Source of the DNA: a virus
DNA: 26,649 bases
Virus record (IMG/VR): IMGVR_UViG_3300027687_000061
Coordinates: 1 to 26,649 of that record
Reading direction: 5' to 3' (one strand)
Made by a program: the position numbers and the translations under genes. Below the pieces are notes generated by a model, which had not been told where the DNA came from, ran no database searches, and saw only the letters and a program-made list of their open reading frames with translations. Below are positions 5,978 through 26,292 of the stretch, one piece after another. The first letter of the stretch is position 1. The number at the start of each line of letters is the position of its first letter.

Positions 5978-5994
5978 AGCCTACTTTTTACTCT

Positions 5995-6002
5995 TATAAA
6001 TA
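5995..6002 (+). promoter_or_regulatory. Late promoter positioned to give a leaderless gp19 mRNA
   Basis: An exact TATAAATA. In T4 the octamer spans about -13 to -6, which puts +1 on base 6008, the A of the gp19 ATG. There is no ribosome binding site between the octamer and the ATG. Confidence 0.7.
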
Positions 6003-6007
6003 TTAGT

Positions 6008-6607
6008 ATGACAGATATAAATGTATTTACTAGAGAGCCGTCTAAACAAGATTTTGCTAGTCCTGTTCAGTTTAGGTTTAAGATAACCAAACTGCCATTA
6101 GTTGAATATTTTGTACAGACAGCAAACATTCCAGGAATAACTTTAGGTGGCGCTACACAACCAACACCACTTGTTGATATACCAATACCAGGTGATAAGA
6201 TAACTTATGCTTCTCTTGATATGTCATTTCTTGTTGATGAAAATTTAAATAACTATAAAGAGATACACGACTGGATGGTCGGTTTAGGTTTTCCTGATAA
6301 TCATAAACAATTTCAAGACTTACAATCTACTGGTTCAGATAGATTTCCTGGGTCTAGTAGAAGTACAGCCGTAACAGGCACCTCTGTACCACAACCTTTA
6401 AATGAGGGTGGTATATATTCAGATGCTACTTTAACAGTATTGAATAGTAAGAATATTGCCAAAACTGAAATACGATTTAAAAATGTTTATCCGACTAGTT
6501 TGGGTAGTTTGAGTTATGATGTTAAACAATCAGATGTTGATTATCTAGTTGCTCCGATTAGTTTCAATTATACAAACTATGAAATAGTACAAATATCCTC
6601 TAGTTAA
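6008..6607 (+). CDS. gp19: Tail tube protein, gp19 family
   Basis: 199 residues, related to T4 gp19 (163 residues), which stacks as hexamers to form the inner tail tube. Matching blocks are the DFASPVQFRFKITKLP strand near the start, the (I/L)PG turn, the PGDKITYASLDMSFLVDENLNNYKEIHDWM region that parallels the T4 GDR...NDE...WQ region, and the C-terminal strand block ending FNYTNYEIV. It carries a Ser/Thr/Gly-rich insertion near residues 110-135 that T4 lacks. In T4 gene 19 lies between 18 and 20, but here it lies after gp23. It could be a second tube-family paralogue instead of the tube itself. gp18 is not in the window. No Shine-Dalgarno sequence is present. Confidence 0.82.
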   Translation: MTDINVFTREPSKQDFASPVQFRFKITKLPLVEYFVQTANIPGITLGGATQPTPLVDIPIPGDKITYASLDMSFLVDENLNNYKEIHDWMVGLGFPDNHKQFQDLQSTGSDRFPGSSRSTAVTGTSVPQPLNEGGIYSDATLTVLNSKNIAKTEIRFKNVYPTSLGSLSYDVKQSDVDYLVAPISFNYTNYEIVQISSS

Positions 6608-6637
6608 TATTAATCCAAAATAAAATGGTCAAAAGCC

Positions 6638-6666
6638 TTGACATTTGTTCCAAAATATGATATAAT
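6638..6666 (+). promoter_or_regulatory. Sigma70-type early promoter of uvsY
   Basis: A consensus TTGACA (6638-6643), a 17-nt spacer and a consensus TATAAT (6661-6666) with the extended -10 TGA. The expected +1 is base 6673, the A of the uvsY ATG, and there is no ribosome binding site. It would be recognised by the host housekeeping sigma factor. Confidence 0.85.
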
Positions 6667-6672
6667 ACCACT

Positions 6673-7101
6673 ATGACATTAGAAGAATTACAGCAACAGG
6701 TAGATAAAGATTTTAAGCTTGATGATACAGAGTTAGATGCTGAATCAATTAAGATACCTTTATTACATAACAAATATTTACAACACTTTAACAAGTTTTC
6801 TTTATTATTAAAGAAGGCAGAGTATGACCACAAATCAATGGTAAGAGAGAAGTGGGAATACTATACTGGCAAAGCAGATCAATCTGTATATGCACAGAAA
6901 CCTTTTGATCTTAAAGTTCTAAAATCAGATGTTCATATCTATATGGATTCAGATGAAGATTTACAAAAGGCAGACCAAAAAGCAGCCTATCTTAATCAAG
7001 TAGTTAAGTATCTTGAACAAGTTTTAAGAAGCATAAACAATAGAACATTTTTAATTAAGAACGCAATAGAATGGAAGAAGTTCACAAGTGGAGCAATCTA
7101 A
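6673..7101 (+). CDS. uvsY: Recombination mediator UvsY
   Basis: 142 residues, against 137 for T4 UvsY, which loads the UvsX recombinase onto gp32-coated single-stranded DNA. Family features are the N-terminal helix (LEELQQQVDKDF), the basic central region ending KPFDLKVLKSDVHIYMDSD, and the C-terminal oligomerisation helix with YLNQVVKYLEQVLRSINNRTFLIKNAIEWKKFTSG. It starts an operon running through uvsW. The ATG coincides with the predicted transcription start, so the message is probably leaderless. Confidence 0.95.
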   Translation: MTLEELQQQVDKDFKLDDTELDAESIKIPLLHNKYLQHFNKFSLLLKKAEYDHKSMVREKWEYYTGKADQSVYAQKPFDLKVLKSDVHIYMDSDEDLQKADQKAAYLNQVVKYLEQVLRSINNRTFLIKNAIEWKKFTSGAI

Positions 7102-7285
7102 TCACCCTGCTTGTATTGGTCTTTCTAAAGTAGGCAACTATGGTCGAGTACATACACTATGGAACGATTGTAAAGGTAGTCGTCCTACACCATGGTATAT
7201 GAGATTAATCCCTATGAGATATATTAAGTGGGATAGAAACGGGAGTTATTTATTTAATGGAACATCAAAAGATATTCGCAACTAA
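7088..7285 (+). CDS. Small conserved-looking protein of unknown function (GTG start)
   Basis: 65 residues starting with GTG, 14 nt inside the end of uvsY, with GGAAGAAG 7 nt upstream as ribosome binding site. It has a Cys/Trp-containing core (GRVHTLWNDCKGSRPTPWYMRLIPMRYIKWD) rich in aromatic and basic residues. I see no membrane segment. It overlaps the next gene by 29 nt. The position between uvsY and an oxygenase suggests recombination-operon membership. I do not recognise the family. A shorter product from the internal Met at about 7199 is possible. Confidence 0.55.
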   Translation: MEQSNHPACIGLSKVGNYGRVHTLWNDCKGSRPTPWYMRLIPMRYIKWDRNGSYLFNGTSKDIRN

Positions 7286-7862
7286 TCTATTTTTAATAGA
7301 CAATTTTGTACCCAAAAAAGATACTCAAGGTATGAAAAGTTACATTGGTAATCTATGGAAGAATAGAGACTATGATAATAACTGGCAAACTAAGTCAGCT
7401 GATTTACACAAACAAGTAGTGTTTTTTAATTTTTGTAAAATCGTTACCAACGCAACTAAAAAGATATTAGATAAATTAGAATATGAAGTAGATGATATCG
7501 TAATAACAGATATGTGGGCAAATGTTTTAAAAGGTAATGAACATCACCCAATGCACACACACTCAAACAATTTTTTAAGTGGTACATACTATTTACAATC
7601 TGATGAAAATGCTAGTATTGTTTTTCATGACCCTAGACCAGCAGCAGATGTTATTGTACCTAGAAAGAAAGAAACAAATATGGATAACTCAAGCCTATTA
7701 AGTTATGCATCAAGACAGAATAGGGCAATAATATTTCCATCATGGTTACCTCATTGGGTTCAACAAAACAAGTCTAGTAATAAACGCATAAGTATAGCGT
7801 GGAATATACAAGTTAAAGGACAGTTAGGAGAACACCATGAGTTTCAATCAGCAAGTTTCTAA
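7257..7862 (+). CDS. 2OG-Fe(II) oxygenase, cyanophage type
   Basis: 201 residues of a double-stranded beta-helix dioxygenase resembling those commonly found beside uvsW in marine T4-like phages. The iron/2-oxoglutarate residues are visible as the HPMHTH segment (His100/His102), the following SGTYYLQSDENASIVFHDPRP core, distal His166 in WLPHWVQ and Arg177, which should bind 2-oxoglutarate. Such enzymes hydroxylate proteins, nucleic acids or small molecules; the substrate here is unknown. The start lacks a strong ribosome binding site (GGGAG about 11 nt away) and lies within the previous reading frame. The end overlaps the next oxygenase gene by 26 nt. Confidence 0.85.
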   Translation: MEHQKIFATNLFLIDNFVPKKDTQGMKSYIGNLWKNRDYDNNWQTKSADLHKQVVFFNFCKIVTNATKKILDKLEYEVDDIVITDMWANVLKGNEHHPMHTHSNNFLSGTYYLQSDENASIVFHDPRPAADVIVPRKKETNMDNSSLLSYASRQNRAIIFPSWLPHWVQQNKSSNKRISIAWNIQVKGQLGEHHEFQSASF

Positions 7863-8400
7863 TTTTATATATTATTATCCTAAAGTATTAGATTCACAAA
7901 TTTGTAATAGTATATTAACTCACTATAATAAAGATACTTTCAAAGGGTGGAAAACATCTACCTTCTCTACAACAAAATCAAACACAGGCTCATCTAAAGT
8001 TGATATGAAAGAATATTGGATAGGACCAAAAGATATGTTCTATAAAGATATACAAAAAGGTTTTGAAATGGCAGTTGATGATTATGTCAAAGAAAATAAT
8101 AAAATAAATGTTCAAGAATACACACGATTTAGAATTAACTGTTATGAGACTGGTGGTTTTATGAAAGAACATATAGATAATATTCATCATAGTCATGGAC
8201 AGAAACAAGGTTATCCACATCTAACATCTTTAATATTTTTAAATGATGATTACGGTGGTGGCGAATTTACATTATGTGGTGAATCTTTAGATAAAGACAA
8301 AGGATCAGCTGTTGTGTTTCCCTCAAATTTTATGTTTCCCCACGAAGTAGAAAAAGTTACTAGTGGTGTGAGATATAGTATAATGACTTGGGTTTTATAA
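7837..8400 (+). CDS. 2OG-Fe(II) oxygenase, PKHD/prolyl-hydroxylase type
   Basis: 187 residues with a textbook facial triad: His112-x-Asp114 (KEHIDNIHH), distal His169 (FPHEVEKV) and Arg179 for 2-oxoglutarate. The LTSLIFLNDDYGGGEFTL strand pair and GSAVVFPSNFMFPHEV are typical of the prolyl-4-hydroxylase/PKHD group. AGGAG sits 8 nt before the ATG. It is different enough from its upstream neighbour that the two are not a recent duplication. A role in modifying a host or virion protein is possible. The substrate cannot be read from the sequence. Confidence 0.88.
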   Translation: MSFNQQVSNFIYYYPKVLDSQICNSILTHYNKDTFKGWKTSTFSTTKSNTGSSKVDMKEYWIGPKDMFYKDIQKGFEMAVDDYVKENNKINVQEYTRFRINCYETGGFMKEHIDNIHHSHGQKQGYPHLTSLIFLNDDYGGGEFTLCGESLDKDKGSAVVFPSNFMFPHEVEKVTSGVRYSIMTWVL

Positions 8401-8403
8401 TCT

Positions 8404-9882
8404 ATGGACACTCTTATAATAGAGAAGAAGAATGAGGTTTATATAACCGTTGATTGTGACCCAAATGTTCAGAGAGAGTTATCTGAATTTTTTACATTCT
8501 ATGTTCCTGGTTATAAGTTCATGCCTGCATTTCGTAATCGTATGTGGGATGGTAAGATAAGATTATTTTCACAAAAGACCAAAGAGATATACTTTGGATT
8601 ATTTCCTTACATTAAAGCATTTGCCGAAGAAAGAGAATATCATATTGTCTGTGGTAAAGATGTTGAAGTAAAAAATAAAGTAGATAAAGATATTGTTGAG
8701 AAGTTTTCTAATAGTCTAGGTCAAAAATTTGAAGCAAGAGATTATCAAGTAGACGCTATATATCACAGTTTAAAGCACAATAGGGCACTCCTACTTAGTC
8801 CTACAGCATCAGGTAAGTCTTTCATCATCTATGCTCTCATTCGTTACTATACACATCTAATCAAAGATGAGACTAACAATCGAATATTGTTAATCGTACC
8901 TACAACCTCATTGGTTGAGCAGATGTATTCTGACTTTAAATCGTATGGTTGGAATGTAGAAAAGAATTGCCATAGATTGTATAGTGGATATTCAAATCAA
9001 ACAGATAAGAAAGTTCTTATATCAACATGGCAGAGTTTATATAAATTACCAAAAACATATTTTGACCAGTTCGGTGTAGTGTTTGGTGATGAAGCTCATT
9101 TATTTAAATCTAAATCATTAACAGAGATTATGTCTAAACTTATTGATTGTAAATATAGAATAGGCCTAACAGGAACACTTGATGGTGCTCAAACTCATAA
9201 ACTTGTATTAGAAGGATTGTTTGGTGCTGTGAATAAAGTTACATCTACTAGAAAACTTATGGATAAACAACAGCTGTCAAATCTTGTTGTTCGTTGTTTA
9301 ATATTAAAACATACAGATGAAAACTCTAAGATAGTTTCAAATGGTAAATATCAAGATGAAATAGATTACTTAGTAAGTAGCAGACCGAGACAAAATTTCA
9401 TTCGTAATCTAGCACTTAAATTAAAAGGTAATACTTTGGTGTTATTTCAGTTAGTCGAAAAACATGGTAAAGATTTACATAAGATAATAAAAGAAAAGGC
9501 TGAAGAAGGTCGAAAAGTTTTTTATATCTTTGGTGGTGTAGAAGCAGACGAAAGAGAAGCGATAAGAGGTATAGTAGAAAAAGAAAAGAATGCTGTTATC
9601 GTTGCAAGTTATGGCACATTCTCTACTGGTGTTAATATTAAAAACTTACACAATATTATATTTGCTAGTCCATCTAAAAGTAGAATAAGAAACCTACAGT
9701 CTATAGGCCGTGGGTTAAGATTAGGCGACAATAAGGTTAATGCGACATTGTATGATATAGCAGATAATCTAACTTATAAATCAAAAGAAAACTTTACACT
9801 AAAACATTTCCAAGAAAGGATAAACATTTATACCGAGGAAGAATTTGAGTATGAGATACACAATATCGACCTGAAGGAATAG
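8404..9882 (+). CDS. uvsW: ATP-dependent helicase UvsW
   Basis: 492 residues, close to T4 UvsW (503), a superfamily 2 helicase that remodels stalled forks and recombination intermediates and unwinds R-loops. Seen in order: an N-terminal DNA-binding domain with MPAFRNRMWDGKIRLF, the Q-motif-like RDYQVDAIYHSL, Walker A in SPTASGKSF (about 137-139), GDEAH (about 228-232), SAT-type LTGTLDG, and motif VI SIGRGLRLGDNK near residue 433. It starts 4 nt after the preceding oxygenase without an evident ribosome binding site. Confidence 0.96.
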   Translation: MDTLIIEKKNEVYITVDCDPNVQRELSEFFTFYVPGYKFMPAFRNRMWDGKIRLFSQKTKEIYFGLFPYIKAFAEEREYHIVCGKDVEVKNKVDKDIVEKFSNSLGQKFEARDYQVDAIYHSLKHNRALLLSPTASGKSFIIYALIRYYTHLIKDETNNRILLIVPTTSLVEQMYSDFKSYGWNVEKNCHRLYSGYSNQTDKKVLISTWQSLYKLPKTYFDQFGVVFGDEAHLFKSKSLTEIMSKLIDCKYRIGLTGTLDGAQTHKLVLEGLFGAVNKVTSTRKLMDKQQLSNLVVRCLILKHTDENSKIVSNGKYQDEIDYLVSSRPRQNFIRNLALKLKGNTLVLFQLVEKHGKDLHKIIKEKAEEGRKVFYIFGGVEADEREAIRGIVEKEKNAVIVASYGTFSTGVNIKNLHNIIFASPSKSRIRNLQSIGRGLRLGDNKVNATLYDIADNLTYKSKENFTLKHFQERINIYTEEEFEYEIHNIDLKE

Positions 9883-9889
9883 ATAAATA
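9882..9889 (+). promoter_or_regulatory. Possible late promoter variant (GATAAATA)
   Basis: One mismatch from TATAAATA, overlapping the uvsW stop. It lies at exactly the same distance from the next ATG (5 nt) as the gp19 promoter does, so the predicted +1 is again the start codon. Weaker than the exact matches. Confidence 0.35.
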
Positions 9890-9894
9890 GTTAT

Positions 9895-10338
9895 ATGGAT
9901 AAATTAATAGAACAACCTAATGCTAATGTAGTTGATTACCGAATAGTTCGCTTGTCTGATGGTAGCGTTCTTGTTGGTAGTATATCAATAGACAAAGACT
10001 TTTTAAGAATACACAATCCATTAGAACTTAAAACAACACCTAGAATTACAGGTGAAGGGGTAAAAGAAGATTCAGTATTATCACCATGGATACCTTTTAC
10101 AGAGGATAAACTATTTGTAGTACCAAAAGAAAAAGTAATGGTTATATCAAAAGCAGCCAAAGAGTTGGCAAACTATTATGAGGTTGTATTACATAAACTC
10201 TCTAGTGTGAAAACAAAAGCAGTTTACTCTCCTGCTGAGATTGAAAGAATAATGGAACTTGCAGATGAGATGGAAGCACAGTTAGAGGAAGAAAGTAATT
10301 ATGAAAATGATGATGTTGGGAATAAAACAGTACACTAA
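9895..10338 (+). CDS. Small beta-barrel (Sm/SH3-like) protein conserved next to uvsW
   Basis: 147 residues. The first 85 look like a small beta barrel: VVDYRIVRLSDGSVLVGSI, LRIHNPLEL, then SVLSPWIPFTEDKLFVVPKEKVMVI. The 'DG..LVG.I..D...L.I..P' pattern resembles Sm-like RNA-binding folds. The rest is a helix (AAKELANYYEVVLHKL) and an acidic helical tail. I recall similar unnamed proteins beside uvsW in marine T4-like phages, but the function is unknown. No Shine-Dalgarno sequence precedes the ATG, and a late-promoter-like octamer ends 5 nt before it. Confidence 0.7.
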   Translation: MDKLIEQPNANVVDYRIVRLSDGSVLVGSISIDKDFLRIHNPLELKTTPRITGEGVKEDSVLSPWIPFTEDKLFVVPKEKVMVISKAAKELANYYEVVLHKLSSVKTKAVYSPAEIERIMELADEMEAQLEEESNYENDDVGNKTVH

Positions 10339-10370
10339 GCTTAGCCCATCCCAAAGCGACTACATAGTCG

Positions 10371-10398
10371 ATTATACACATAATCCTATGAATGTCAA
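10371..10398 (-). promoter_or_regulatory. Leftward sigma70-type promoter in the gap before gp55
   Basis: On the minus strand this reads TTGACA (10398-10393), 16 nt, TATAAT (10376-10371), so both boxes are perfect consensus. It points away from gp55 into the end of the 9895 gene. No sensible reading frame starts downstream of the expected +1 near 10364, so any product would be a small or antisense RNA. A 6-bp inverted repeat (CGACTA/TAGTCG, 10357-10370) sits between the -10 box and the +1 region. Confidence 0.5.
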
Positions 10399-10425
10399 GC
10401 ACAACAAAAAAACTTATTGAGTTGC

Positions 10426-10454
10426 TTGCATTTTGCTAAAAAATATAGTATAAT
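10426..10454 (+). promoter_or_regulatory. Sigma70-type promoter of gp55
   Basis: TTGCAT (10426-10431), 17-nt spacer, TATAAT (10449-10454). It lacks the extended -10 TG seen in the other early promoters of this window. It gives a leader of about 18 nt before the gp55 ATG, back to back with the leftward promoter at 10371-10398. Confidence 0.65.
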
Positions 10455-10478
10455 ACATTATAGAAAGTTGAAAATATT

Positions 10479-10985
10479 ATGATTAAAAATAAAGCACAAA
10501 AACCACATTATGTAGATAATAAAAAGTTTTTAGAGGCGATGGTTGAGTACAGAGAAAAATGTGCTGATGCTGCAGAAAAAAATAAAAGTAAGCCAGATGT
10601 TACGAATTATATTGGTGAGTGTTTTTTAAAGATTGCAAATCATTTATCGTATAGACCTAATTTTATTAACTATACATTTAGAGACGATATGATATCAGAC
10701 GGTATAGAAAACTGTTTGCAATACATGAGTAACTTTAATCCAGAGAAGTCAAACAATCCGTTTGCATATTTTACACAAATAATTTACTATGCATTTATAA
10801 GAAGAATACAAAAAGAGAAAAAACAAATGCTGATTAAATCTAAGTTGATTGCTAATGCAGGTGCAGAGAATATGATGGACCAGTTAGCAGGAGATGATAA
10901 AGTATATCAAAGTCAAATGTTAGATTTCTTACAAAGAAACGCAGTTAAAGAAGAAGAACCAAAAAAAGAAGTTAAAAAGAAATAG
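10479..10985 (+). CDS. gp55: Late transcription sigma factor gp55
   Basis: 168 residues, against 185 for T4 gp55, the divergent sigma factor that directs host RNA polymerase to TATAAATA late promoters. The core YRPNFINYTFRDDMISDGIENCLQYMSNFNPEKSNNPFAYFTQIIYYAFIRRIQKEKKQ is the conserved sigma region 2-like part that recognises the -10-type octamer. The Lys/Glu-rich C-terminus is where the clamp-binding tail would be, although I cannot identify a clear clamp-binding motif. It heads a cluster with gp47 and gp46 and fits the late promoters seen at 833, 3462 and 5995. Confidence 0.94.
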   Translation: MIKNKAQKPHYVDNKKFLEAMVEYREKCADAAEKNKSKPDVTNYIGECFLKIANHLSYRPNFINYTFRDDMISDGIENCLQYMSNFNPEKSNNPFAYFTQIIYYAFIRRIQKEKKQMLIKSKLIANAGAENMMDQLAGDDKVYQSQMLDFLQRNAVKEEEPKKEVKKK

Positions 10986-10988
10986 ATT

Positions 10989-12074
10989 ATGAAAATAGCA
11001 CTACTTAACGACACCCACTTTGGTGCTCGTAATGACAGCAGTATATTTGATGAATACTTTTATAAGTTTTATGATGATATATTCTTTCCTTACTTAAAAC
11101 AGCACAACATAAAAACACTTATACACTTAGGTGATATAGTTGATAGAAGAAAATATATTAACTATAGAATAGCACACAACCTTAGACATAAGTTTTTAGA
11201 CAAACTGTGGCAGAATAAAATAGATACACATATACTAATAGGTAATCACGATATCTATTATAGAAACACCAATAAAGTAAATGCTGTAAAAGAACTATGC
11301 ACAGCACCTGATGGTGTTAATGAGCCTTGGATATATGAAGAACCTAAAGTAGTAGACTTTGATGGTCTAAAAATATTAATGATGCCTTGGATTAATCCAG
11401 AGAACGAAGTAGATTCTTTAAATACTTTGAACACAGCAGAAGCCGACATATGTATGGGTCACTTTGATTTAAATGGATTTAGAATGATGGACTCAATAGT
11501 ACAAACACATGGTTACGATAAGAATATTGTATCACGATTTGAAACAACATATAGTGGTCATTTTCATCACAAGAATGATGACGGTCAAGTATTCTATTTG
11601 GGTAGTCAATATGAAATGACATGGTCAGACTACAACAATCAAAAAGGGTTTCATGTATTAGATACTGAAACAAGAGAAGTTGAGTTTATTCCTAATCCAC
11701 ATACCATATTTAAAAAGTTAATGTACAATGATACCGAAACAAACTATGATAAAATGGATATATCAGACTACAATCAAAAGTTTATTAAGTTAGTTGTTGT
11801 TAATAAAAAAGACAATCAAATGTTTGATAGGTTGCTTGATAGATTATATAATAATATAAGTGTACATGAGCTTAAAATACTAGAAGATTATTCTGATCTT
11901 AGTCACACCAATGTCAGCGATGATGTTGTTGAGGGGTCTGAAGATACAATTACACTTGTTAATAATTATGTAGATCAGTTGCCAGTTGATTTAGATAAAG
12001 AGAAACTAAAAGTTATGATAAAAGAAAAGTTTATTGAGGCACAGGATAGTGATATAAAAGATGATAGTATTTAA
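10989..12074 (+). CDS. gp47: Recombination nuclease subunit gp47 (Mre11/SbcD-like)
   Basis: 361 residues, related to T4 gp47 (339). The metallophosphoesterase motifs appear in order: NDTHFG (residues about 5-10), GDIVDRR (about 48), GNHD (about 83), MGHFDLNG and SGHFHH. These bind two metal ions for nuclease activity. With gp46 it resects DNA ends for recombination-dependent replication and helps degrade host DNA. It starts 3 nt after gp55 and overlaps gp46 by 14 nt, so the two are made together. Confidence 0.95.
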   Translation: MKIALLNDTHFGARNDSSIFDEYFYKFYDDIFFPYLKQHNIKTLIHLGDIVDRRKYINYRIAHNLRHKFLDKLWQNKIDTHILIGNHDIYYRNTNKVNAVKELCTAPDGVNEPWIYEEPKVVDFDGLKILMMPWINPENEVDSLNTLNTAEADICMGHFDLNGFRMMDSIVQTHGYDKNIVSRFETTYSGHFHHKNDDGQVFYLGSQYEMTWSDYNNQKGFHVLDTETREVEFIPNPHTIFKKLMYNDTETNYDKMDISDYNQKFIKLVVVNKKDNQMFDRLLDRLYNNISVHELKILEDYSDLSHTNVSDDVVEGSEDTITLVNNYVDQLPVDLDKEKLKVMIKEKFIEAQDSDIKDDSI

Positions 12075-15935: not shown

Positions 15936-15936
15936 G

Positions 15937-17025
15937 ATGAAAGCATGGCAAAATGGATATGAATTAGATACACTAATTGATTGGACTAATAAATTTGAAA
16001 CATATAACAAATATTGTTTTAGTCCTTTTAGTAAAGCAAAAAAGAATGGCATGGCAAGTGCTTTAAGTAAAGGTTTATTACACGAACAAGAAGGAGTTGT
16101 TTATGAGGCAAGAACAGCCAAAGCAACATCAAAAGTAAAAATGTTTGGGGCAGGACCAGAGATTGCAAGTGTGATACCTGGTGAAAAAGTAATATCAAAA
16201 ATATCTTATTCAAGTGATACTACTAAAGAAAATATATCTAATATTTTAAAAGATTTTAAAGAACCTACATGGTGTCATATATTTGAAGAAAATACATTTT
16301 TAAAAAATGCAGTAGAAGAATCAGGGTTTAGAAAGATAGGAACAAAGGTAAGTACATTTAGTGATATAGTAGGTGTCTATTATAGAGGCGATAGACAATT
16401 TACTCCTGTGCCTGAAACTGAAAACATTAATATTCTTAAAACTAAATTGAAGTTTGACCATGATGTTATAGATGACTTAGCACAATATCTTATTGATATG
16501 AACTTAGAATATACAAATCACAATAGTAATTATAATAAAGGTAAAGCATGGCAGGCATTATCGTTACTAGGATTTGAAAAAGATAGTACATATGTTGATA
16601 AAATGGCAGACTTAAAAGAAGATAGACCTTTGGTTAAAACAGACCTATATGATAAGTTAGGAAGTAAAGTTGACCACTTTCTAGATAAGATACCAGGTAA
16701 GTTTGATAGAGTTCGTTTTATGACACTTAAACCGGGTGGGGGTGAACTTGCAAGACATACCGATCAGACAGACCCAACATGGGGTACAACCGATGGCAAA
16801 ATGATACGATTACATATACCGCTTAAGACAAACGATAAAGTTATATTTACATCATGGGATAATAATGGTGAAAAACATATTCACAATATGCAAAAGGGAG
16901 AGTGTTGGTTTTTAGACACTAGACGGCCTCACACAGCAATTAACGGTGGTGATGATATTCGTATTCATTTAGTTGCAGATGTATGGGCAAGTGATGATGT
17001 AAGACAGGCTTTACTTTTAAACTGA
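15937..17025 (+). CDS. Two-domain protein: GNAT-like N-terminus fused to a 2OG-Fe(II) hydroxylase
   Basis: 362 residues. Residues 1-155 resemble a degenerate GNAT acetyltransferase: the end WCHIFEENTFLKNAVEESGFRKIGTKVSTFSDIVGVYYRG matches the final helix and strand pair of that fold. Residues about 165-362 are a double-stranded beta-helix dioxygenase of the aspartyl/asparaginyl hydroxylase kind, with His274-x-Asp276 (RHTDQTDP), distal His332 (RRPHTAINGG) and Arg342, so its iron and 2-oxoglutarate residues are complete. A clear AAGGAG lies before the ATG. The acetyl-CoA loop of the N-terminal half is not obvious, so that half may bind instead of catalyse. Confidence 0.75.
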   Translation: MKAWQNGYELDTLIDWTNKFETYNKYCFSPFSKAKKNGMASALSKGLLHEQEGVVYEARTAKATSKVKMFGAGPEIASVIPGEKVISKISYSSDTTKENISNILKDFKEPTWCHIFEENTFLKNAVEESGFRKIGTKVSTFSDIVGVYYRGDRQFTPVPETENINILKTKLKFDHDVIDDLAQYLIDMNLEYTNHNSNYNKGKAWQALSLLGFEKDSTYVDKMADLKEDRPLVKTDLYDKLGSKVDHFLDKIPGKFDRVRFMTLKPGGGELARHTDQTDPTWGTTDGKMIRLHIPLKTNDKVIFTSWDNNGEKHIHNMQKGECWFLDTRRPHTAINGGDDIRIHLVADVWASDDVRQALLLN

Positions 17026-17038
17026 TGTGTGATACAAT
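17010..17038 (+). promoter_or_regulatory. Early-type promoter before the PLP enzyme gene
   Basis: TTTACT (17010-17015), 17-nt spacer ending in TGA, then TACAAT (17033-17038). The -35 box is imperfect, but the extended -10 matches the other early promoters. The expected +1 is 17045, the A of the next ATG. Confidence 0.6.
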
Positions 17039-17044
17039 ATACTT

Positions 17045-17854
17045 ATGCGATTAGATACGCCTGTTGAAGAATATAAATTAAACGGTAGAAACATACTTGT
17101 TAAACGAGATGACCTTATGGGTGATGGTCAAGTATTACCACCTTGGGGAAAGATGGCAGGTATTGACGCCTTACTAGAAAACTTAAATCCTAAATACCCT
17201 TTAATACATCTTGCAGTAAACGGATCGTGGTCTGGTTGGGCATTATCGTATCTATGTAAAAGAAGAGGTATTAAGTTTATCTATGCATATGCACCATCTA
17301 AAACATATTCTCAATTTATATTAGATAAGGCAAAAGAAAATGATTGTGAGTTTCATGAACTGAAACCTAACATGATGGCGATACTTTATAATAGAGTAAA
17401 TTCATATGCTAAAAAGAATGATATACAGATGTTACCATATGCTTTTGACCATATAGATTATCGTAGTAATCTAAAAGAACGAGCTGAAAAAGTATTTAAA
17501 GAACATTTAGTAGATCATTTAGTTATATCAGCAGGGTCAGGTGTAACAAGTTCTGGTATAGTACAGGCATATCAACCAGGTAATGATTTATTTTCTAACT
17601 CAAATAAACAAGCACATATTATTACAGTATCAAATATCAATACAATATATGAAAAGTACAAAAGTCATAGTATTGCTTCAAGTTCTATTAATGTGGATAA
17701 AACAAAATATGAATTTGATGATATGATGAATGAGTATGAAGTGCCTTTTCCTTGTAACGGAACATGGGATCGAAAAGCATGGTGGTGGTTAGAACAAACA
17801 GAAAACAAACTAAAGGGTGATATATTATTCTGGAACATAGGTGGTAACATATGA
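17045..17854 (+). CDS. PLP-dependent enzyme of the ACC deaminase / D-cysteine desulfhydrase type
   Basis: 269 residues of fold type II PLP enzymes. The TPVEEYKLNGRNILVKRDDLMG opening is the family's usual start. The PPWGKMAGIDALL stretch carries the probable PLP lysine (about residue 40) in the place of the common G-N-K motif. SAGSGVTSSGIVQAY would bind the phosphate, and ILFWNIGGN closes the domain. It is shorter than bacterial ACC deaminase (about 335 residues), and the usual catalytic Asn before the Lys is replaced, so the reaction may differ. It begins at a predicted transcription start without a ribosome binding site and overlaps the next gene by 4 nt. Confidence 0.75.
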   Translation: MRLDTPVEEYKLNGRNILVKRDDLMGDGQVLPPWGKMAGIDALLENLNPKYPLIHLAVNGSWSGWALSYLCKRRGIKFIYAYAPSKTYSQFILDKAKENDCEFHELKPNMMAILYNRVNSYAKKNDIQMLPYAFDHIDYRSNLKERAEKVFKEHLVDHLVISAGSGVTSSGIVQAYQPGNDLFSNSNKQAHIITVSNINTIYEKYKSHSIASSSINVDKTKYEFDDMMNEYEVPFPCNGTWDRKAWWWLEQTENKLKGDILFWNIGGNI

Positions 17855-18837: not shown

Positions 18838-19603
18838 AAAAGATATTAAATTTGCACCAGATACATTCTTAAATGATTATGAATGGGAATCTCATGGTCA
18901 GTATGATAGTTTAGATTTTATTAATCCTAATGTAAAAGTATTGTCAGTTCAATTTTCTAAAGTAGGAGAAAAGAGTTACAAAGCATTTCCTAACTTAGAG
19001 TGGATCATAGTTAGACAACATGGGTTTGATAATGTGAACTTAGAAGAATGTGAAAAAAGAAATATAGGCGTTGTTAATACAAGACCATTCTCACAGTCAA
19101 CAGCAAACTGGATTAATCAATATATTATACCAAATGATAATGTTGCGATTGTTGGGTATGGTGATATAGGTTCTAAAGTAGAAGCAGTTAATTATAAAGT
19201 GTTTAAAAGAAGTGATAGTATTGATAATCTTTCAGAGTTTAATACTTTAGTTGTAGCAGTTCAACCAGAAGGTAATGATAATCTTATTAATGATAGTGTT
19301 TTGAAAAACTTTAAAGGTAAACTAATATCAGTTAGTCGCTCTAATGTTATTGATAATTACGCTCTACATGAAAACATTAATAATATATCTCATGCTTATG
19401 TTGATACCTTAGATAGTAATTTAAGAGAAGAACTATTAGAAACTAAAAAGGTAACTTATACTAAACACACAGCCTTTGAATACAACTTTACATATGAAAA
19501 CAATACACAATACTTTATTAACTTACAAAACACAATTGATAAGTGTCTAGATAATAATATTGATAACGCTATTCTATCAAGAGGAGAGAGGGTACTATTT
19601 TGA
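18818..19603 (+). CDS. D-2-hydroxyacid dehydrogenase-like NAD-binding protein
   Basis: 261 residues. The segment LEWIIVRQHGFDNVNLEECEKRNIGVVNTRPFSQSTANWI follows the pattern of phosphoglycerate and other 2-hydroxyacid dehydrogenases (gaGxDNxdl..c...gi.v.N.p). VAIVGYGDIGSKV is a Rossmann dinucleotide loop (GxGxxG, about residue 113), and the late part has ISVSRSNVIDNYAL and SHAYVDTLDSN. It is about 50-60 residues shorter than usual, and the typical catalytic His near the end is only loosely matched (KHTAF). It may therefore be a specialised or non-catalytic relative. It overlaps the preceding gene by 20 nt. Confidence 0.65.
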   Translation: MIILKDKKDIKFAPDTFLNDYEWESHGQYDSLDFINPNVKVLSVQFSKVGEKSYKAFPNLEWIIVRQHGFDNVNLEECEKRNIGVVNTRPFSQSTANWINQYIIPNDNVAIVGYGDIGSKVEAVNYKVFKRSDSIDNLSEFNTLVVAVQPEGNDNLINDSVLKNFKGKLISVSRSNVIDNYALHENINNISHAYVDTLDSNLREELLETKKVTYTKHTAFEYNFTYENNTQYFINLQNTIDKCLDNNIDNAILSRGERVLF

Positions 19604-20679: not shown

Positions 20680-20685
20680 ATAAAA

Positions 20686-20707
20686 AGTGCGACATTCTGT
20701 CAGCACT
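20686..20707 (+). other. Stable hairpin just after the methyltransferase stop
   Basis: AGTGC-GACA around a TTC loop pairs with TGTC-(A)-GCACT, giving nine base pairs with one bulge. No T-run follows directly, so alone it is not a classic terminator. It may stabilise the 3' end or assist the next hairpin. Confidence 0.55.
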
Positions 20708-20712
20708 CTATA

Positions 20713-20742
20713 AACCCTTGAAAAATAAGGGTTATTTTATTT
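20713..20742 (+). terminator. Probable intrinsic terminator of the accessory operon
   Basis: AACCCTT/AAGGGTT stem (20713-20719 with 20727-20733) around an A-rich loop, then ATTTTATTT. It lies just before the tandem promoters at 20764 and 20860. Confidence 0.6.
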
Positions 20743-20763
20743 CAAAATAAACGGTAATAATGC

Positions 20764-20792
20764 TTGACATTTACACCGATTGGTGATAGCAT
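20764..20792 (+). promoter_or_regulatory. Promoter P1 of the VWA/HExxH gene
   Basis: TTGACA (20764-20769), 17-nt spacer ending TGA, then TAGCAT (20787-20792). The expected +1 is 20799, which is the A of an ATG opening a 26-codon frame that closes inside P2. Confidence 0.75.
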
Positions 20793-20859
20793 AGCATCAT
20801 GTTAGAAAAATCATTGAAAAGCAACACTTTTTTTATTTTCAAAAAAACGGTATTAGTGC

Positions 20860-20888
20860 TTGACATTTACACCGATTGATGATAGCAT
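20860..20888 (+). promoter_or_regulatory. Promoter P2 of the VWA/HExxH gene
   Basis: TTGACA (20860-20865), 17-nt spacer ending TGA, then TAGCAT (20883-20888). The expected +1 near 20895 leaves about 5 nt before the ATG at 20900 and no ribosome binding site. Confidence 0.75.
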
Positions 20889-20899
20889 AGCACCATATT

Positions 20900-23284
20900 A
20901 TGAAAAACATGAAAACAAACAACATTAACAATCAGGCAAAATCTTTTCTTGCCAAATTACTTGCGACTGAAAATATATCAGTTGAACACAAAAAAGTAAA
21001 AACAGCTTACTTTGATGTTAAGCATAGATTACTTGTATTACCTATATGGAAAAATATGAATGAAGATATTACAGACTTATTAATATCACACGAAGTCGGT
21101 CATGCATTATTTACACCATCATCAGGATGGCAAGATGCTGTTACTAAAAAAAAGATTCCACATTCTTTCTTAAATGTTGTTGAAGATGCTCGTATCGAGA
21201 AGTTAATCAAAAGAAAATATGCAGGTTTATCACAAACATTTATTAGAGGTTATAGAGACCTTATTAATAATGACTTTTTTGGTACTAAAGATAAAGACCT
21301 TGATGATATGCTTCTTATTGATAGATTAAATGTTCATTTTAAATCTTCTCATGTAGAAAGTCCTATTACATTCTCTGATGATACTGAACTTGACTTTGTT
21401 AATAGAATGGAAAAGTTAGAGACATTTGATGATGTGATTAATCTTGCTGAAGAATTATCAAAGTATTGTAAAGAAGAAGCTGAAGAAAAACAAAAAGAAA
21501 TGGAATCTGAAACTGCTGACGATGGCGACTATGATGGCGAAGAAGATGAAGATATGAGAGACGGCGAAAGTCAATCTCAACCTGATGATAACAAAAAAGA
21601 AGAAGAAGAAAAATCAGGTTCTAAAAAATCAGATGAAGAAGGCAAAGAAGATAAAGAAGAAAAAGATACAGATCAAAAAGATCCTATTAATTCAGATGAT
21701 CCAAAAGGCGGTCAACAGAGTGATGAACAGTTAGAGGGTCCACCTTCACAACCTGCAAAGATACCAGAAGATATATCTGCTGAAACTGATAAGTCTTGGG
21801 AAAACAAAAAAGAAAATTTATTAGATCCTGCGTCTAAAGATAATGAATATCTTAATATTCACAATTACAAAAATGTTAATGACTATATTATAGATTACAA
21901 ACAAGTCTTAAAAGATTTTAGTCCAAGATTTAATGTAATTAAAGATACACAAAGATTAAGTTCAATAAACAAACTTCTTTCAGAATACAGAAAGTTTACA
22001 AAATCACAATCTAAAAAAGTTAGTTACATGGTAAAAGAGTATGAAATGAAAAAGTCTGCTTCTGCTTATTCTAGAACCAAACAAGATAAGTCTGGCGTAG
22101 TTGATCCACTTAAACTACACAGTTACAAATACAATGATGATATATTTAAAAGAATGGCAATTACACCTGATGGTAAAAATCACGGTATGATGATGTTTAT
22201 AGACTGGTCAGGTAGTATGCACGATAAGATTACTTCTACTATACATCAATTAATGAATTTAACAATGTTCTGTCAAAAAGTAAATATACCTTTTGAAGTA
22301 TATGCTTTTAGTAATGATGGTTATTCTAATAGAGACCTTGCTAAAGAGGGTAAGAGACATCCTAGTTATCAAGATAATGACATTTCAGTTGATGAAAGAT
22401 TATCTTTAATAAACTTTGTATCTTCTAGAATGAATAGTAAAGAATATGAAAAAGGTATGATTAACTTATTCTTAGTTGCTACTAAAAATGATCCTAGATA
22501 TGATGGATATTTGTCAAGAAAAAAAGTAAGAAACATGGATTTTGTAGAATATAATAAACACATGGCATCAATTGATTGGGTTCGTAACTTACCAAGAGAA
22601 CCTCAAGGATATAGTATGTGTTCTACTCCATTAAATGATTGTATCATGGCTGCAATGCCTATGGTTACTGCTTTCAGAAAAAAATATGCTATTGATAAAA
22701 TGAATACAATCTTTTTAACTGATGGTCATAGTGACGGCAACGATAGAAAGATTTTCTTTAATCCTACCGAACAAGAAATTAAAAACAATTCTATATGTAA
22801 AACTGATCGAGGTTACTTTGTTGGTTATACTTCTTATAAAAGTAATATGATCCTTAGAGATACTAAGACTAAAAAAGAATACTTAGTAGATTCTAGAGAT
22901 ATGACACATAGTTTATTAGATTCTTTAAGAGAAAGAACTGGTACTAAAGTTTTAGGTTTCTATATTTCAAGTGGTAAACAAGTTGATCGTTACACTATGG
23001 ATACCTACTTTCCTAGTTATTCTTATGACGGTAGAAAAACTTTTGATAGAAAAAAAGTAATGGCTGAATTTAGAAAAAATAAATGTCTAGTTGTAAAACA
23101 CAGCATAGGCTATGATGAATTTTACCTCCTTGCTGGGGGTGAGATGCAAGTAACTGATGGTCAAATGGCGACACCATCAGAGAACGCTAAAAAGAGTGAA
23201 ATAAAAAGACTGTTTGCTTCTAATCTAAAAACAAATAGAGATAGTCGAATAGTCTTAAATAAATTTATTTCGCAAGTCGCTTAA
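20900..23284 (+). CDS. CobT-like protein: HExxH metallopeptidase-like domain plus VWA domain
   Basis: 794 residues, the largest gene here. Residues 1-190 hold SHEVGHALF (His64-Glu-x-x-His68) and downstream VVEDARIE (Glu95/Glu99), the layout of a zinc metallopeptidase. Residues about 195-300 are an acidic Glu/Asp/Lys/Ser linker. The C-terminal half has a von Willebrand A domain with the MIDAS start MFIDWSGSM (about 435-440) and later TDGHSDG. The acidic-linker-VWA build is that of CobT, the partner of the CobS AAA+ ATPase, and an ATPase of that type lies just downstream. In marine phages these pairs are named after cobalt chelatase, but no cobalamin gene is nearby. A protein-remodelling complex seems more likely. 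That is inference. Confidence 0.8.
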   Translation: MKNMKTNNINNQAKSFLAKLLATENISVEHKKVKTAYFDVKHRLLVLPIWKNMNEDITDLLISHEVGHALFTPSSGWQDAVTKKKIPHSFLNVVEDARIEKLIKRKYAGLSQTFIRGYRDLINNDFFGTKDKDLDDMLLIDRLNVHFKSSHVESPITFSDDTELDFVNRMEKLETFDDVINLAEELSKYCKEEAEEKQKEMESETADDGDYDGEEDEDMRDGESQSQPDDNKKEEEEKSGSKKSDEEGKEDKEEKDTDQKDPINSDDPKGGQQSDEQLEGPPSQPAKIPEDISAETDKSWENKKENLLDPASKDNEYLNIHNYKNVNDYIIDYKQVLKDFSPRFNVIKDTQRLSSINKLLSEYRKFTKSQSKKVSYMVKEYEMKKSASAYSRTKQDKSGVVDPLKLHSYKYNDDIFKRMAITPDGKNHGMMMFIDWSGSMHDKITSTIHQLMNLTMFCQKVNIPFEVYAFSNDGYSNRDLAKEGKRHPSYQDNDISVDERLSLINFVSSRMNSKEYEKGMINLFLVATKNDPRYDGYLSRKKVRNMDFVEYNKHMASIDWVRNLPREPQGYSMCSTPLNDCIMAAMPMVTAFRKKYAIDKMNTIFLTDGHSDGNDRKIFFNPTEQEIKNNSICKTDRGYFVGYTSYKSNMILRDTKTKKEYLVDSRDMTHSLLDSLRERTGTKVLGFYISSGKQVDRYTMDTYFPSYSYDGRKTFDRKKVMAEFRKNKCLVVKHSIGYDEFYLLAGGEMQVTDGQMATPSENAKKSEIKRLFASNLKTNRDSRIVLNKFISQVA

Positions 23285-23304
23285 TTGATAAAGGAGAATA
23301 TATT

Positions 23305-23547
23305 ATGGAAAATAATACAATCAAACTAACGCCGTCCCAAGAATCGTTTGTTAAAACTGCAAATGAGCAGGGCTTTACAAACACAATTACTAGAAAGGAT
23401 ATCATATCCTTAAAAAGTAGTCATAGTGTAAAGTGGCCAACTTGGTTAGTGAAGAATACTGCTTATAGAGTAGGCAGAGCTTCATACAGTTTACCTACAA
23501 TAGGTCAAACTATGGAATCAGATACTACTGAAACTGTTAGTGAATAA
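23305..23547 (+). CDS. Small protein equal to the N-terminal domain of the downstream AAA+ ATPase
   Basis: 80 residues with AAAGGAG before the ATG, 20 nt after the VWA gene. It aligns with residues 1-70 of the ATPase at 23731: both have TxxQ, then (I/V)(S/T)R-(K/T)-(D/E)-I, a K-x-P-(T/S)-WL segment, (Y)-(R/K)-V-(G/D)-R and Y-(S/A)-LP followed by a Gly. This is a free-standing copy of a putative substrate- or partner-binding domain. It may compete for or adapt the same partner. The C-terminal tail is short and acidic. Confidence 0.7.
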   Translation: MENNTIKLTPSQESFVKTANEQGFTNTITRKDIISLKSSHSVKWPTWLVKNTAYRVGRASYSLPTIGQTMESDTTETVSE

Positions 23548-23560
23548 TCAAAAAATCAAA

Positions 23561-23585
23561 ATGTGGGGGTTTTTGACCCCCATAT
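23561..23585 (+). terminator. Ten-base-pair hairpin between the two CobS-domain genes
   Basis: TGGGGGT/ACCCCCA around TTTTG, extended by further A-T/G-U pairs. No T-run follows on this strand, but a T-rich stretch would follow on the opposite strand. It could be a weak terminator or an mRNA-stabilising end for the VWA transcript. Confidence 0.5.
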
Positions 23586-23662
23586 CGACTAAAAAGAACA
23601 AAGAACGAACAAAGAAAATGAAAAAAGCGCAGAAAATAACGATAAAAAAATGGTTAATATGC

Positions 23663-23691
23663 TTGACTAATGCTTTAATTCATGATAGCAT
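23663..23691 (+). promoter_or_regulatory. Promoter of the CobS-like ATPase (third copy of the repeated promoter)
   Basis: TTGACT (23663-23668), 17-nt spacer ending TGA, then TAGCAT (23686-23691). It shares TGCTTGAC and TGATAGCATAGCACCATA, at identical spacing, with the two promoters at 20764 and 20860, while the spacer sequence differs. Confidence 0.75.
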
Positions 23692-23730
23692 AGCACCATA
23701 CTAAAAAACTACTTTATGAAAGGACTACAA

Positions 23731-24936
23731 ATGACTACATTAAATCAAACTCAAAAAGAGACTGTTGAAATTTTGTACAAAAAGTACAAAAAAACAAATG
23801 TCTCAAGAACCGAGATCAACGAATTAGTTGATAACGGCACAATCAAAAATCCATCTTGGTTAAAATCTAATCAATACAAAGTTGATAGAGGCGTTTATGC
23901 TTTACCAATCGATGGTGATATTTCTTCTCAACTAAAAGAAGAAGTACAATCCGAATTACCTAAAAATGAAACTGCACCTGCTACTGAAATAGTAAGTCAG
24001 GCTGCATTTATCGTTTCATCTTTAACAGGCGATATCGTACCTTCTAAAGATCCTGTGTTTGTACCATGGGGATATTTCAAAGATATTCAAAAGATTGTCT
24101 CAAGTAAACAATTTTACCCAATCTTTATTACAGGTCTTTCTGGTAACGGTAAGACTATGAATGTTTCACAGGCTTGTGCTCAAACTAAAAGAGAATGTAT
24201 CCGTGTGAATATTACTATTGAAACCGATGAAGATGATTTACTCGGTGGTTATAGACTGCAAGACGGTCAAACTGTCTGGCAGAATGGTCCTGTTATCGAA
24301 GCAATGCAGAGAGGTGCTATACTTCTTTTAGATGAAATCGATCTTGCATCAAACAAGATTATGTGTTTACAACCTATTCTTGAAGGCAATGGTGTCTTTC
24401 TTAAAAAGATTAACAAGTTTATTAAACCTGCATTAGGGTTTAATGTGATTGCGACTGCCAATACTAAGGGTCAAGGATCTGAAGATGGCAAGTTTATCGG
24501 TACTAATATTCTTAACGAGGCATTCCTTGAGAGATTTCCGATTACTGTTGAGCAGGCATATCCTACAAATAAGATTGAAAGTAAAATCTTATTGAATGTT
24601 ATGTCCGAAAAAGGTTTGACAAAACAATCAGATGAGAAGTTTGCCGAGAACTTAATCACTTGGGCAGACATCATTCGTAAAACTTATTACGAAGGCGGTG
24701 TAGATGAGCTTATATCTACTAGACGATTGGTTCATATCGTAGAGGCATTCATTATCTTCAAAGATAAAATGAAGTCTATTGAGATGTGTACTAACCGATT
24801 TGACCTAGACACAAAAACTTCCTTTATGGACTTATATACCAAAGTTGATGGCGGCGAAGATATCACCGCTTGGGGTAATCCAGTCCTAGAAGAACCAGAT
24901 TCCGATGATAGTGAGGAAGATAACCCTAGTTACTAG
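23731..24936 (+). CDS. cobS: MoxR/CobS-type AAA+ ATPase
   Basis: 401 residues. I chose the ATG at 23731 because AAAGGA lies 6 nt upstream; the in-frame ATG at 23716 has no site. Residues 1-70 form a small domain shared with the protein at 23305. The AAA+ core follows: Walker A GLSGNGKT (about 135-142), the MoxR/CobS feature DEDDLLGGYRLQDGQTVWQNGPVIEAMQRGAILLLDEID with Walker B near 200, sensor 1 IATANT, and arginine finger region LNEAFLERFP. These ATPases pair with VWA proteins, here the gene at 20900 under a matching promoter. The name cobS follows marine-phage usage; a role in cobalamin is not shown. Confidence 0.88.
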   Translation: MTTLNQTQKETVEILYKKYKKTNVSRTEINELVDNGTIKNPSWLKSNQYKVDRGVYALPIDGDISSQLKEEVQSELPKNETAPATEIVSQAAFIVSSLTGDIVPSKDPVFVPWGYFKDIQKIVSSKQFYPIFITGLSGNGKTMNVSQACAQTKRECIRVNITIETDEDDLLGGYRLQDGQTVWQNGPVIEAMQRGAILLLDEIDLASNKIMCLQPILEGNGVFLKKINKFIKPALGFNVIATANTKGQGSEDGKFIGTNILNEAFLERFPITVEQAYPTNKIESKILLNVMSEKGLTKQSDEKFAENLITWADIIRKTYYEGGVDELISTRRLVHIVEAFIIFKDKMKSIEMCTNRFDLDTKTSFMDLYTKVDGGEDITAWGNPVLEEPDSDDSEEDNPSY

Positions 24937-24967
24937 AGTTATTCAAAATCTATTTCATAATGTAGTT

Positions 24968-24992
24968 GAGGGGCGGCTGATTACCGCCTCTC
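24968..24992 (+). terminator. Hairpin after the ATPase gene
   Basis: GAGGGGCGG pairs with CCGCCTCTC over nine positions (one G-U) around a seven-base loop, then a short T/A-rich tail. It is the expected place for a terminator, although the T-run is weak. Confidence 0.65.
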
Positions 24993-25015
24993 TTAAATCT
25001 ACCTCAGGCGGTCGC

Positions 25016-25044
25016 TTGACAAAGATACTATATTGTGATACGAT
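25016..25044 (+). promoter_or_regulatory. Early promoter of the 25083 two-gene unit
   Basis: TTGACA (25016-25021), 17-nt spacer ending TGA, then TACGAT (25039-25044). Unlike several others it has a real leader of about 30 nt with AAGGAG. Confidence 0.75.
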
Positions 25045-25082
25045 AATATCAACTAATAAAAAACTTGAAGGAGACTTATATT

Positions 25083-25436
25083 ATGCCAAACAAAAAGACT
25101 AAACTAAAAACTGAACAAAAATGGTCAGTTTCACTATCGGGTGCTTCAGTACCAACCTATTTGCAAGAACTTGCTAAAAAGAAAAATGTAAGTAATGCTC
25201 AAATAGTAAATGGTCTGCAGGATTATTTACAAGAAAATCCTAAATTTGCAAAAGAATTTATGGATTATTCTGCAACAATATCAACAAGTAGAAAAGTTCA
25301 AGCAACTGATTCAATACTTGCAAAGAAACTAACTGAAGTTGCAATATTGATTAAAAAATCAAAGAAACCAAAACAAAATATCTCTTTTTTGAGAAATAAA
25401 ATTAAAGAAGAAGCTGGTGAAAAATTACCCTATTAA
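25083..25436 (+). CDS. Small basic protein upstream of a nuclease-like frame
   Basis: 117 residues, Lys-rich at both ends. The ATG at 25083 has AAGGAG 9 nt upstream, so I prefer it to the in-frame TTG at 25065. The middle is helical (TYLQELAKKKNVSNAQIVNGLQDYLQENPKFAKEFMDYS), with a pattern that could be a small DNA-binding helical domain (KKKNVSNAQIVNGLQDYL), but I recognise no family. Its last 13 nt overlap the next open frame, which has no usual start codon, so the two may be coupled or joined by frameshifting. Confidence 0.65.
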   Translation: MPNKKTKLKTEQKWSVSLSGASVPTYLQELAKKKNVSNAQIVNGLQDYLQENPKFAKEFMDYSATISTSRKVQATDSILAKKLTEVAILIKKSKKPKQNISFLRNKIKEEAGEKLPY

Positions 25437-25900
25437 CAAATAAATTTAAATCAAATAAACAATTTGAAACTCACGCCCTAACAAAAGTTATAGGGCGTAA
25501 GTTTATTTTAGAGAATATAGCAGACGATGGAGAAGTTGGTAAAATAGCAGAACAAAAACTATTTGGTAAAGTTGCTCCTGCTGGTAAAGCAGATTTCTAT
25601 GTAAACGGTAAACCAGAAGAACTGAAAGCTTATAAATCAGGATCAATTCATATTCTTACAAGTATATCAGGATATAAAATAAAACAAAAAGCAACTGACA
25701 AAATGAAACGATCCAGTTTACTATACTATGAAAAAACAAATGGTACAATAATATTTGATACACTTTATAGACTTAATAATATGAATGAAGAAGTATTTAA
25801 AAAATCATTAAATATTAGAAAAAATAAGTATGGAAAGTATGAAGCTAATATAACATTAAAAAATTTAGAAAAATCATTTTCAATAAAAGAGGTTGCCTAG
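25424..25900 (+). CDS. Putative PD-(D/E)xK-type nuclease without a standard start codon
   Basis: The frame is open from 25421 (after a TGA at 25418) to a TAG at 25900, but contains no ATG, GTG or TTG until codon 94 (ATG at 25703). Upstream of that ATG the translation is clearly protein-like: FETHALTKVIGRKFI, then GKIAEQKLFGKVAPAGKADFYVNGKPEELKAYKSGSIHI. Counting from ATT at 25424, Asp57 and Glu66-Leu67-Lys68 make a D-(8)-E-x-K pattern in strand context, as in PD-(D/E)xK nucleases, and an early helix has a Glu (QFETH). Translation could start at ATT or arise by a -1 shift from the 25083 gene near GAA AAA TTA. A frameshift error in the sequence is also possible. The nuclease call is tentative. 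Confidence 0.5.
   Translation: MTLLTNKFKSNKQFETHALTKVIGRKFILENIADDGEVGKIAEQKLFGKVAPAGKADFYVNGKPEELKAYKSGSIHILTSISGYKIKQKATDKMKRSSLLYYEKTNGTIIFDTLYRLNNMNEEVFKKSLNIRKNKYGKYEANITLKNLEKSFSIKEVA
25473..25498 (+). other. Eight-base-pair hairpin inside the start of the nuclease-like frame
   Basis: ACGCCCTA pairs perfectly with TAGGGCGT around a ten-base loop. It is 37 nt after the stop of the 25083 gene and followed by a T-rich stretch (GTTTATTTTA), so it could be a weak terminator for that gene or an element controlling entry into the next frame. Confidence 0.5.
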
Positions 25901-25905
25901 TAGGC

Positions 25906-25934
25906 TTGACAATGAATAGAAAATATGATATTAT
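25906..25934 (+). promoter_or_regulatory. Early promoter of the HExxH protein / bS21 operon
   Basis: TTGACA (25906-25911), 17-nt spacer ending TGA, then TATTAT (25929-25934). The expected +1 at 25941 is one base before the ATG at 25942, with no ribosome binding site. Confidence 0.75.
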
Positions 25935-25941
25935 ATAAACA

Positions 25942-26292
25942 ATGAAAAACAAAACTGAAAAAAACATAATACCAAATTCTGTTAAAATCGGATATGTTAA
26001 TTATGAGTTCGACTTTTGGCCTGACACTTTTGCGACTACCGAAGAGGCACAAGGCGAGTTCTTTCAATCACAAGGTAAGATTGGTTTAAAATCTTCTACC
26101 TTAGATAGTATTCATGGTGTGAATACAGTTTTACATGAGATTATGCATGGCATAGTTTATCAGTATGGATTAGTAGAGCATCTTGGTGACAAAGAAGAAG
26201 TTACTGTTAATACGATAACAAATGGCTTAACAACTGTACTAGTTGATAACCCATGGTTAATAGATTATATACGAGGGCAGGTTAAGAAATGA
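25942..26292 (+). CDS. Small HExxH (zinc-peptidase-like) protein
   Basis: 116 residues. STLDSIHGVNTVLHEIMHGIVYQYGL contains His65-Glu66-x-x-His69 in a helix, and Glu85/Glu86 in KEEVTVNTITNGL could be the third ligand, followed by a helix, as in compact zincins of the ImmA/SprT size class. The N-terminal half is beta-rich (VKIGYVNYEFDFWPDTF). I cannot assign a family with certainty. In this position, co-transcribed with bS21, it could cleave a host regulator; that is inference. Its stop overlaps the bS21 start (ATGA). Confidence 0.7.
   Translation: MKNKTEKNIIPNSVKIGYVNYEFDFWPDTFATTEEAQGEFFQSQGKIGLKSSTLDSIHGVNTVLHEIMHGIVYQYGLVEHLGDKEEVTVNTITNGLTTVLVDNPWLIDYIRGQVKK

Follow-up and report, generated by a model that had tools for sequence, protein, structure and literature searches.

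The DNA analysed here (hereafter, the window) is the 26,649-nucleotide stretch of virus record IMGVR_UViG_3300027687_000061, a 26.6-kb fragment of a T4-like marine phage. Its early, sigma70-type promoters and its late, T4-type promoters both lie so close to certain start codons that transcription would begin on, or a few bases from, the A of the ATG, and leaderless or near-leaderless mRNA is very probably the explanation of this arrangement. Among named phages, the window is closest to two that infect SAR11, Mosig EXVC030M and HTVC008M, and the host of the window phage is presumably SAR11, as for these isolated relatives. Plus-strand genes of the window include gp22, gp23, a tail gene, uvsY, uvsW and the gene of the late sigma factor gp55.

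Distances between promoters and start codons

The distance d is the number of nucleotides separating the end of the promoter box (the late box or the -10 box) from the ATG. As T4 late boxes are numbered with the first base at -13 (PMC2988020), a late box followed by five intervening nucleotides places +1 on the A of the ATG; six intervening nucleotides after a sigma70 -10 box likewise do so. The late type is represented in the window by an exact 8-bp TATAAATA box at 5995 without a -35 element, together with a gp55 gene at 10479, and the early type by a TTGACA-like element, a 17-bp spacer and a TATAAT-like element, frequently with a TG extension. The distances underlying the original prediction, which placed +1 on the A for the genes at 6008, 9895, uvsY, 17045 and 20799 and one base ahead of it for the HExxH gene, were confirmed at each of these starts by reading and by a script (Table 1).

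A comparison set of 139 IMG/VR loci was retrieved with uvsY, peptidase and pyridoxal phosphate (PLP) enzyme queries, to which Mosig and HTVC008M were added for the late boxes. Among 134 non-redundant TATAAATA sites with a downstream ATG that opens an open reading frame (ORF), 35 have d = 5, none has d = 4, and two each have d = 6, 7 and 8, whereas reversed sequence gave no late-box site at d = 5. Control octamers showed no spike of like size; only the T4-tolerated variant AATAAATA has seven sites at 5 nt. The strict sigma70 scan (fixed -35, TG-extended -10 with at most one mismatch) yielded 72 non-redundant promoters versus 2 in reversed sequence, and a spacer of 17 bp occurs at 72 non-redundant sites versus 3–8 for 15, 16, 18 or 19 bp; on these two grounds, the sites are regarded as real promoters. 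To the first ATG that opens an ORF, d is most often 6, and a further, broad group of these promoters stands about 18–36 nt away; when the TG requirement is dropped, 59 of 105 sites lie at 5–9 nt with a peak at 6–7 nt.

Chance matches in an AT-rich genome are suggested by the GC content of about 32% and by loose sigma70 scans (at most three mismatches, spacer 16–18), which return numerous false sites in the window as well as in the control and were dropped because real and reversed sequence gave similar counts. Against chance stand the excess of strict promoters and their preferred spacer, the retention of position while the bases diverge, and tests made at the level of protein families. The late d = 5 site is spread over 14 families and the sigma70 site at 5–9 nt over 18; among late families with a modal d of at most 14, 10 of 15 have d = 5 (p = 4e-9), and among sigma70 families with a modal d of at most 29, 15 of 34 fall at 5–9 (p = 1.6e-4). 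Chance is thus extremely improbable, in agreement with the original prediction that the geometry would be hard to obtain by accident.

Late boxes at short and long distance share identical downstream GT bases, so that both look like one promoter type. The base preceding the ATG is a pyrimidine at all late d = 5 sites, as against 53% of all gene starts, which would favour a transcription start on the A; this bias is only partly informative, as T precedes 46% of all ATGs in these phages. As a separate observation, TATATT-like hexamers abut the ATG at 51 of 669 gene starts in pelagimyophage loci L008–L146, mostly without a -35 element, and are perhaps a translation context motif.

Conservation of position and Shine-Dalgarno sequences

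Variable promoter-to-ATG distances in relatives, which the original prediction held would speak against it, were looked for and did not prevail. Of 36 relatives of the gene at 6008, 34 have d = 5, and eleven different 5-mers separate their boxes from the ATG; for the gene at 9895, about 20 relatives have the box GATAAATA, its first base rarely different, 5 nt ahead of the ATG. The HExxH gene has 6–7 nt in all 14 relatives that bear the promoter, and uvsY mostly 5–9 nt, with a mode of 6 and fourteen different intervening 6-mers at d = 6; outside this range uvsY has mostly changed to a long leader, with a Shine-Dalgarno (SD) sequence in the examples read (L038, L050). The PLP promoter is partially conserved, being alike in L124 and L145 (6 nt) and L140–L142 (7 nt) and not in other relatives. 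Although the frame at 20799 is short, an ATG recurs at d = 6 with differing spacer bases in L091/L145, L095 and L097/L098, and the d = 11 of the peptidase gene at 20900 is retained in near relatives.

SD sequences are excluded from the short class. None of 41 and none of 63 short-distance sites carry one inside the predicted leader, versus 33 of 48 and 29 of 46 long-distance sites, although a leader so short has no room for an SD sequence anyway. Upstream of the short-distance ATGs of the window, none was found except a chance GGTG at 20799, and these genes lack the T4-style SD leader of about 15–25 nt after the promoter; SD-bearing leaders occur at gp22, gp23, 25083 and 860. The claim that genes with longer leaders carry SD sequences holds for gp22, gp23 and 25083 and fails for gp55 and the CobS-like gene, whose leaders of about 18 nt have none. 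Therefore, the absence of SD is not peculiar to the short class. Misplaced start codons were rejected for the window genes: the first methionines of UvsY and of the tail gene product align across phages (the latter kept in Mosig and HTVC008M, with N-termini aligned), and the first 30 codons of six window genes contain no SD-preceded in-frame internal start.

The promoters may be real and yet most translation may draw on polycistronic RNA that is processed or arises by read-through, with the leaderless species minor, as would suit the several genes that lie in same-strand runs with small gaps and the PLP gene, which in many relatives lacks the promoter and is preceded by other sequence. Against this, at the tail gene, stands a terminator-like GC hairpin and T-run 3′ of gp23 (5948–5979), next to which come the late promoter and the ATG at 6008. 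In addition, as SD sequences are missing upstream of these ATGs apart from the chance GGTG, read-through RNA would equally be without them. Predominant translation from such RNA is considered unlikely.

Features and genes of the window

Table 1. Promoters and associated genes in the window (positions in the window; d in nt)
Feature	Position	Strand	d and start codon	Remarks
T4-type late box TATAAATA	5995–6002	+	5 to ATG 6008	predicted +1 = 6008
Tail gene, predicted leaderless start	6008–6607	+		PHROG 45 tail tube match; gp3-like tail completion protein by synteny and HTVC008M annotation
Late-promoter variant GATAAATA	9882–9889	+	5 to ATG 9895	overlaps uvsW stop codon; alike in relatives
PHROG 471-like gene, predicted leaderless	9895–10338	+		
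Late box	833–840	+	19 to ATG 860	longer leader, GGAG
Late box	3462–3469	+	46 to ATG 3516 (gp22)	longer leader, AGGAG
TTGACA-17-TATAAT	6638–6666	+	6 to ATG 6673 (uvsY)	TTGACA 6638–6643, TATAAT 6661–6666
uvsY, predicted leaderless	6673–7101	+		Pfam UvsY 2e-41; start Met conserved across aligned phages
TTTACT-17-TACAAT	17010–17038	+	6 to ATG 17045	-10 at 17033–17038; PLP-dependent enzyme (17045–17854)
TTGACA-17-TAGCAT	20764–20792	+	6 to ATG 20799	-10 at 20787–20792; frame of about 26 codons
Tandem copy of the 20764 promoter	20860–20888	+	11 to ATG 20900	peptidase gene; leader of about 5 nt
TTGACA-17-TATTAT	25906–25934	+	7 to ATG 25942	-10 at 25929–25934; HExxH gene (25942–26292)
TTGCAT-17-TATAAT	10426–10454	+	24 to ATG 10479 (gp55)	longer leader without SD
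TTGACT-17-TAGCAT	23663–23691	+	24 to ATG 23716	CobS-like gene; longer leader without SD
TTGACA-17-TACGAT	25016–25044	+	38 to ATG 25083	longer leader with AGGAG

The gene at 6008, designated gp19 in the original prediction, is probably a gp3-like tail completion gene instead. A gene of this kind occupies the corresponding gp23–uvsY interval in cyanophages and HTVC008M, and a distinct tail tube gene is located elsewhere in the HTVC008M genome. The late box of the 9895 gene departs from consensus at -13, where its G is the final base of the uvsW stop codon, and this overlap may explain the G in place of T; the overlap of stop codon and box (9880–9894) is retained in relatives whose stop is TGA or TAA. 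Between 20764 and 20900, the near-identical promoters lie 96 bp apart as a tandem duplication present in several relatives, and the frame opened by 20799 overlaps the second of them. In HTVC008M (89838–89877; L006:39838-39877), the annotated CobS start (89857) falls within a strict promoter, and translation more likely begins at an ATG 11 nt past the -10 box.

Comparison with other phages, SAR11 and known leaderless systems

In T4, none of 32 late and none of 17 sigma70 sites lie at 5–9 nt; the late boxes with a downstream ORF stand at least 10 nt from the ATG, mostly 21–30 nt, with SD sequences, unlike those of the window phage group. P-SSM4 has two to three late sites and no sigma70 site at 5–9 nt. 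The arrangement TATAAATA-N5-ATG was counted five times in HTVC008M, twice each in Mosig and P-SSM4, once each in JSE and T4, and not at all in six more T4-like records (four cyanophages, a Stenotrophomonas phage and a Vibrio phage). In HTVC008M, late 5′ ends are predicted to coincide with the A of the ATG for genes with boxes ending at 6274, 7556, 31126 and 49754 (+ strand) and at 18922 (- strand), and early ones to lie 1–7 nt ahead of the ATG for gp43 (97061), primase (118253) and the gene at 93048. The Methylophilales phage Melnitz, a sister marine T4-like phage of a methylotroph host, has both promoter classes and mostly long leaders, with d = 5 at two late sites. Mimicry of the host is unsupported: in five SAR11 genomes (G001–G005), near-consensus sigma70 promoters are fewer than in the reversed control, whereas HTVC008M has many, and in a 400-kb sample of SAR11 sequence the -10 boxes form no peak at 6 nt. 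The phage promoters are much nearer the sigma70 consensus than the SAR11 host genome.

Genome compaction by itself, in which promoters crowd the genes, leaders are short and variable, and SD-independent 30S initiation acts on AT-rich starts without dependence on a 5′-terminal AUG, would be compatible with the early leaders of 1–7 nt in HTVC008M and the 5-nt leader of the peptidase gene. A 4-base SD sequence precedes 12% of 358 SAR11 starts in the 400-kb sample, by a crude first-ATG rule, versus 63% in T4, so that the likely host tolerates starts without SD; an intact anti-SD is present in one SAR11 16S tail (L165). However, compaction alone would spread the distances over a short range, whereas the late class spikes at the single position of 5 nt and is almost empty at 6–14, and the compact genomes of T4 and P-SSM4 have almost no such sites. 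It is therefore judged quite unlikely.

Several points weigh against leaderless or near-leaderless mRNA as the explanation. The gene at 6008 contributes 34 of the 56 raw late d = 5 sites, and some sites belong to single-copy families. The +1 positions and the leaderless translation are predicted from DNA alone, and mRNA reading through from upstream could translate these genes too. The sigma70 +1 may move by 1–3 nt, so that d = 7–9 may correspond to leaders of 1–3 nt, and the short-class early promoters of HTVC008M, 7–13 nt from the ATG, would give leaders of about 1–7 nt. The leaderless route proposed in the original prediction thus stands in that both promoter classes agree independently and T4 differs, and requires qualification in that some early leaders measure 1–7 nt rather than zero; its word "deliberate" is to be taken as selected.

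If leaderless or near-leaderless mRNA is made, host RNA polymerase at the sigma70-type promoters and the phage-modified late polymerase at the gp55-type TATAAATA promoters would each produce messages with no leader or one shorter than an SD sequence needs, and ribosomes would initiate at the 5′-terminal AUG, 70S- or IF2-assisted, as in lambda cI. Two modes would then coexist, with leaderless genes beside genes having longer, mostly SD-bearing leaders, and one gene could change mode between lineages. The leaderless placement may also serve some regulatory purpose. A stronger proposal is that pelagimyophages have a second mode of initiation across the genome, in which a defined set of early and late genes is expressed solely as leaderless mRNA and the phage biases host ribosomes towards such messages (e.g., by its own bS21 or an IF2/IF3 shift) to give an SD-independent translational switch; this is judged unlikely. 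Homologues of bS21, a ribosomal protein near the anti-SD, are encoded by Mosig, HTVC008M and Melnitz (L002, L006, L302), with a possible tie to SD-independent initiation.

Leaderless initiation was first discovered in lambda (PMC3160421), and lambda cI, transcribed from PRM, and the classical leaderless mRNAs resemble the present arrangement in that the promoter sets +1 on the A of the AUG, no SD is present and initiation occurs at a 5′-terminal AUG. However, lambda cI is a single regulatory gene of a temperate phage, whereas here many early and late genes of lytic-type T4-like phages are concerned and the 5′ ends are predicted. In Thermus phage phiYS40, most middle and late mRNAs are leaderless, which has been linked to an increase of IF2 and a decrease of IF3 (PMC3594737); this phage is unrelated, and its host group is rich in leaderless genes (about 39% in Deinococcus-Thermus; PMC3160421), unlike the SAR11 sample, which has no leaderless peak. 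The late box and a gp55 homologue (PHROG late sigma) are features shared with T4 late transcription by gp55-gp33-gp45. Phage transcripts are often leaderless according to one transcriptome paper (PMC5312081), and a pelagimyophage survey did not find middle and late promoters and predicted early ones by generic tools only (PMC7029224). Literature searches turned up neither a description of leaderless transcripts for pelagiphages or T4-like phages nor a pelagimyophage transcriptome, and in the Mosig and Melnitz papers, "leaderless" occurs only inside a reference title. Leaderless phage mRNAs are thus known from lambda cI and phiYS40, and what is new is the predicted leaderless placement, in a T4-like lineage, of genes of the early as well as the late class, which T4 lacks.

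From these distances, promoters of both classes can be given a working definition in a marine virus group of great abundance, and the 5′ ends of RNA can be sharply predicted at named genes; gene finders or promoter tools that demand a leader or an SD sequence would misplace such starts. If the explanation is true, the T4-type transcription machinery would supply two modes of translation initiation, and SAR11-type ribosomes would have to cope well with leaderless messages.

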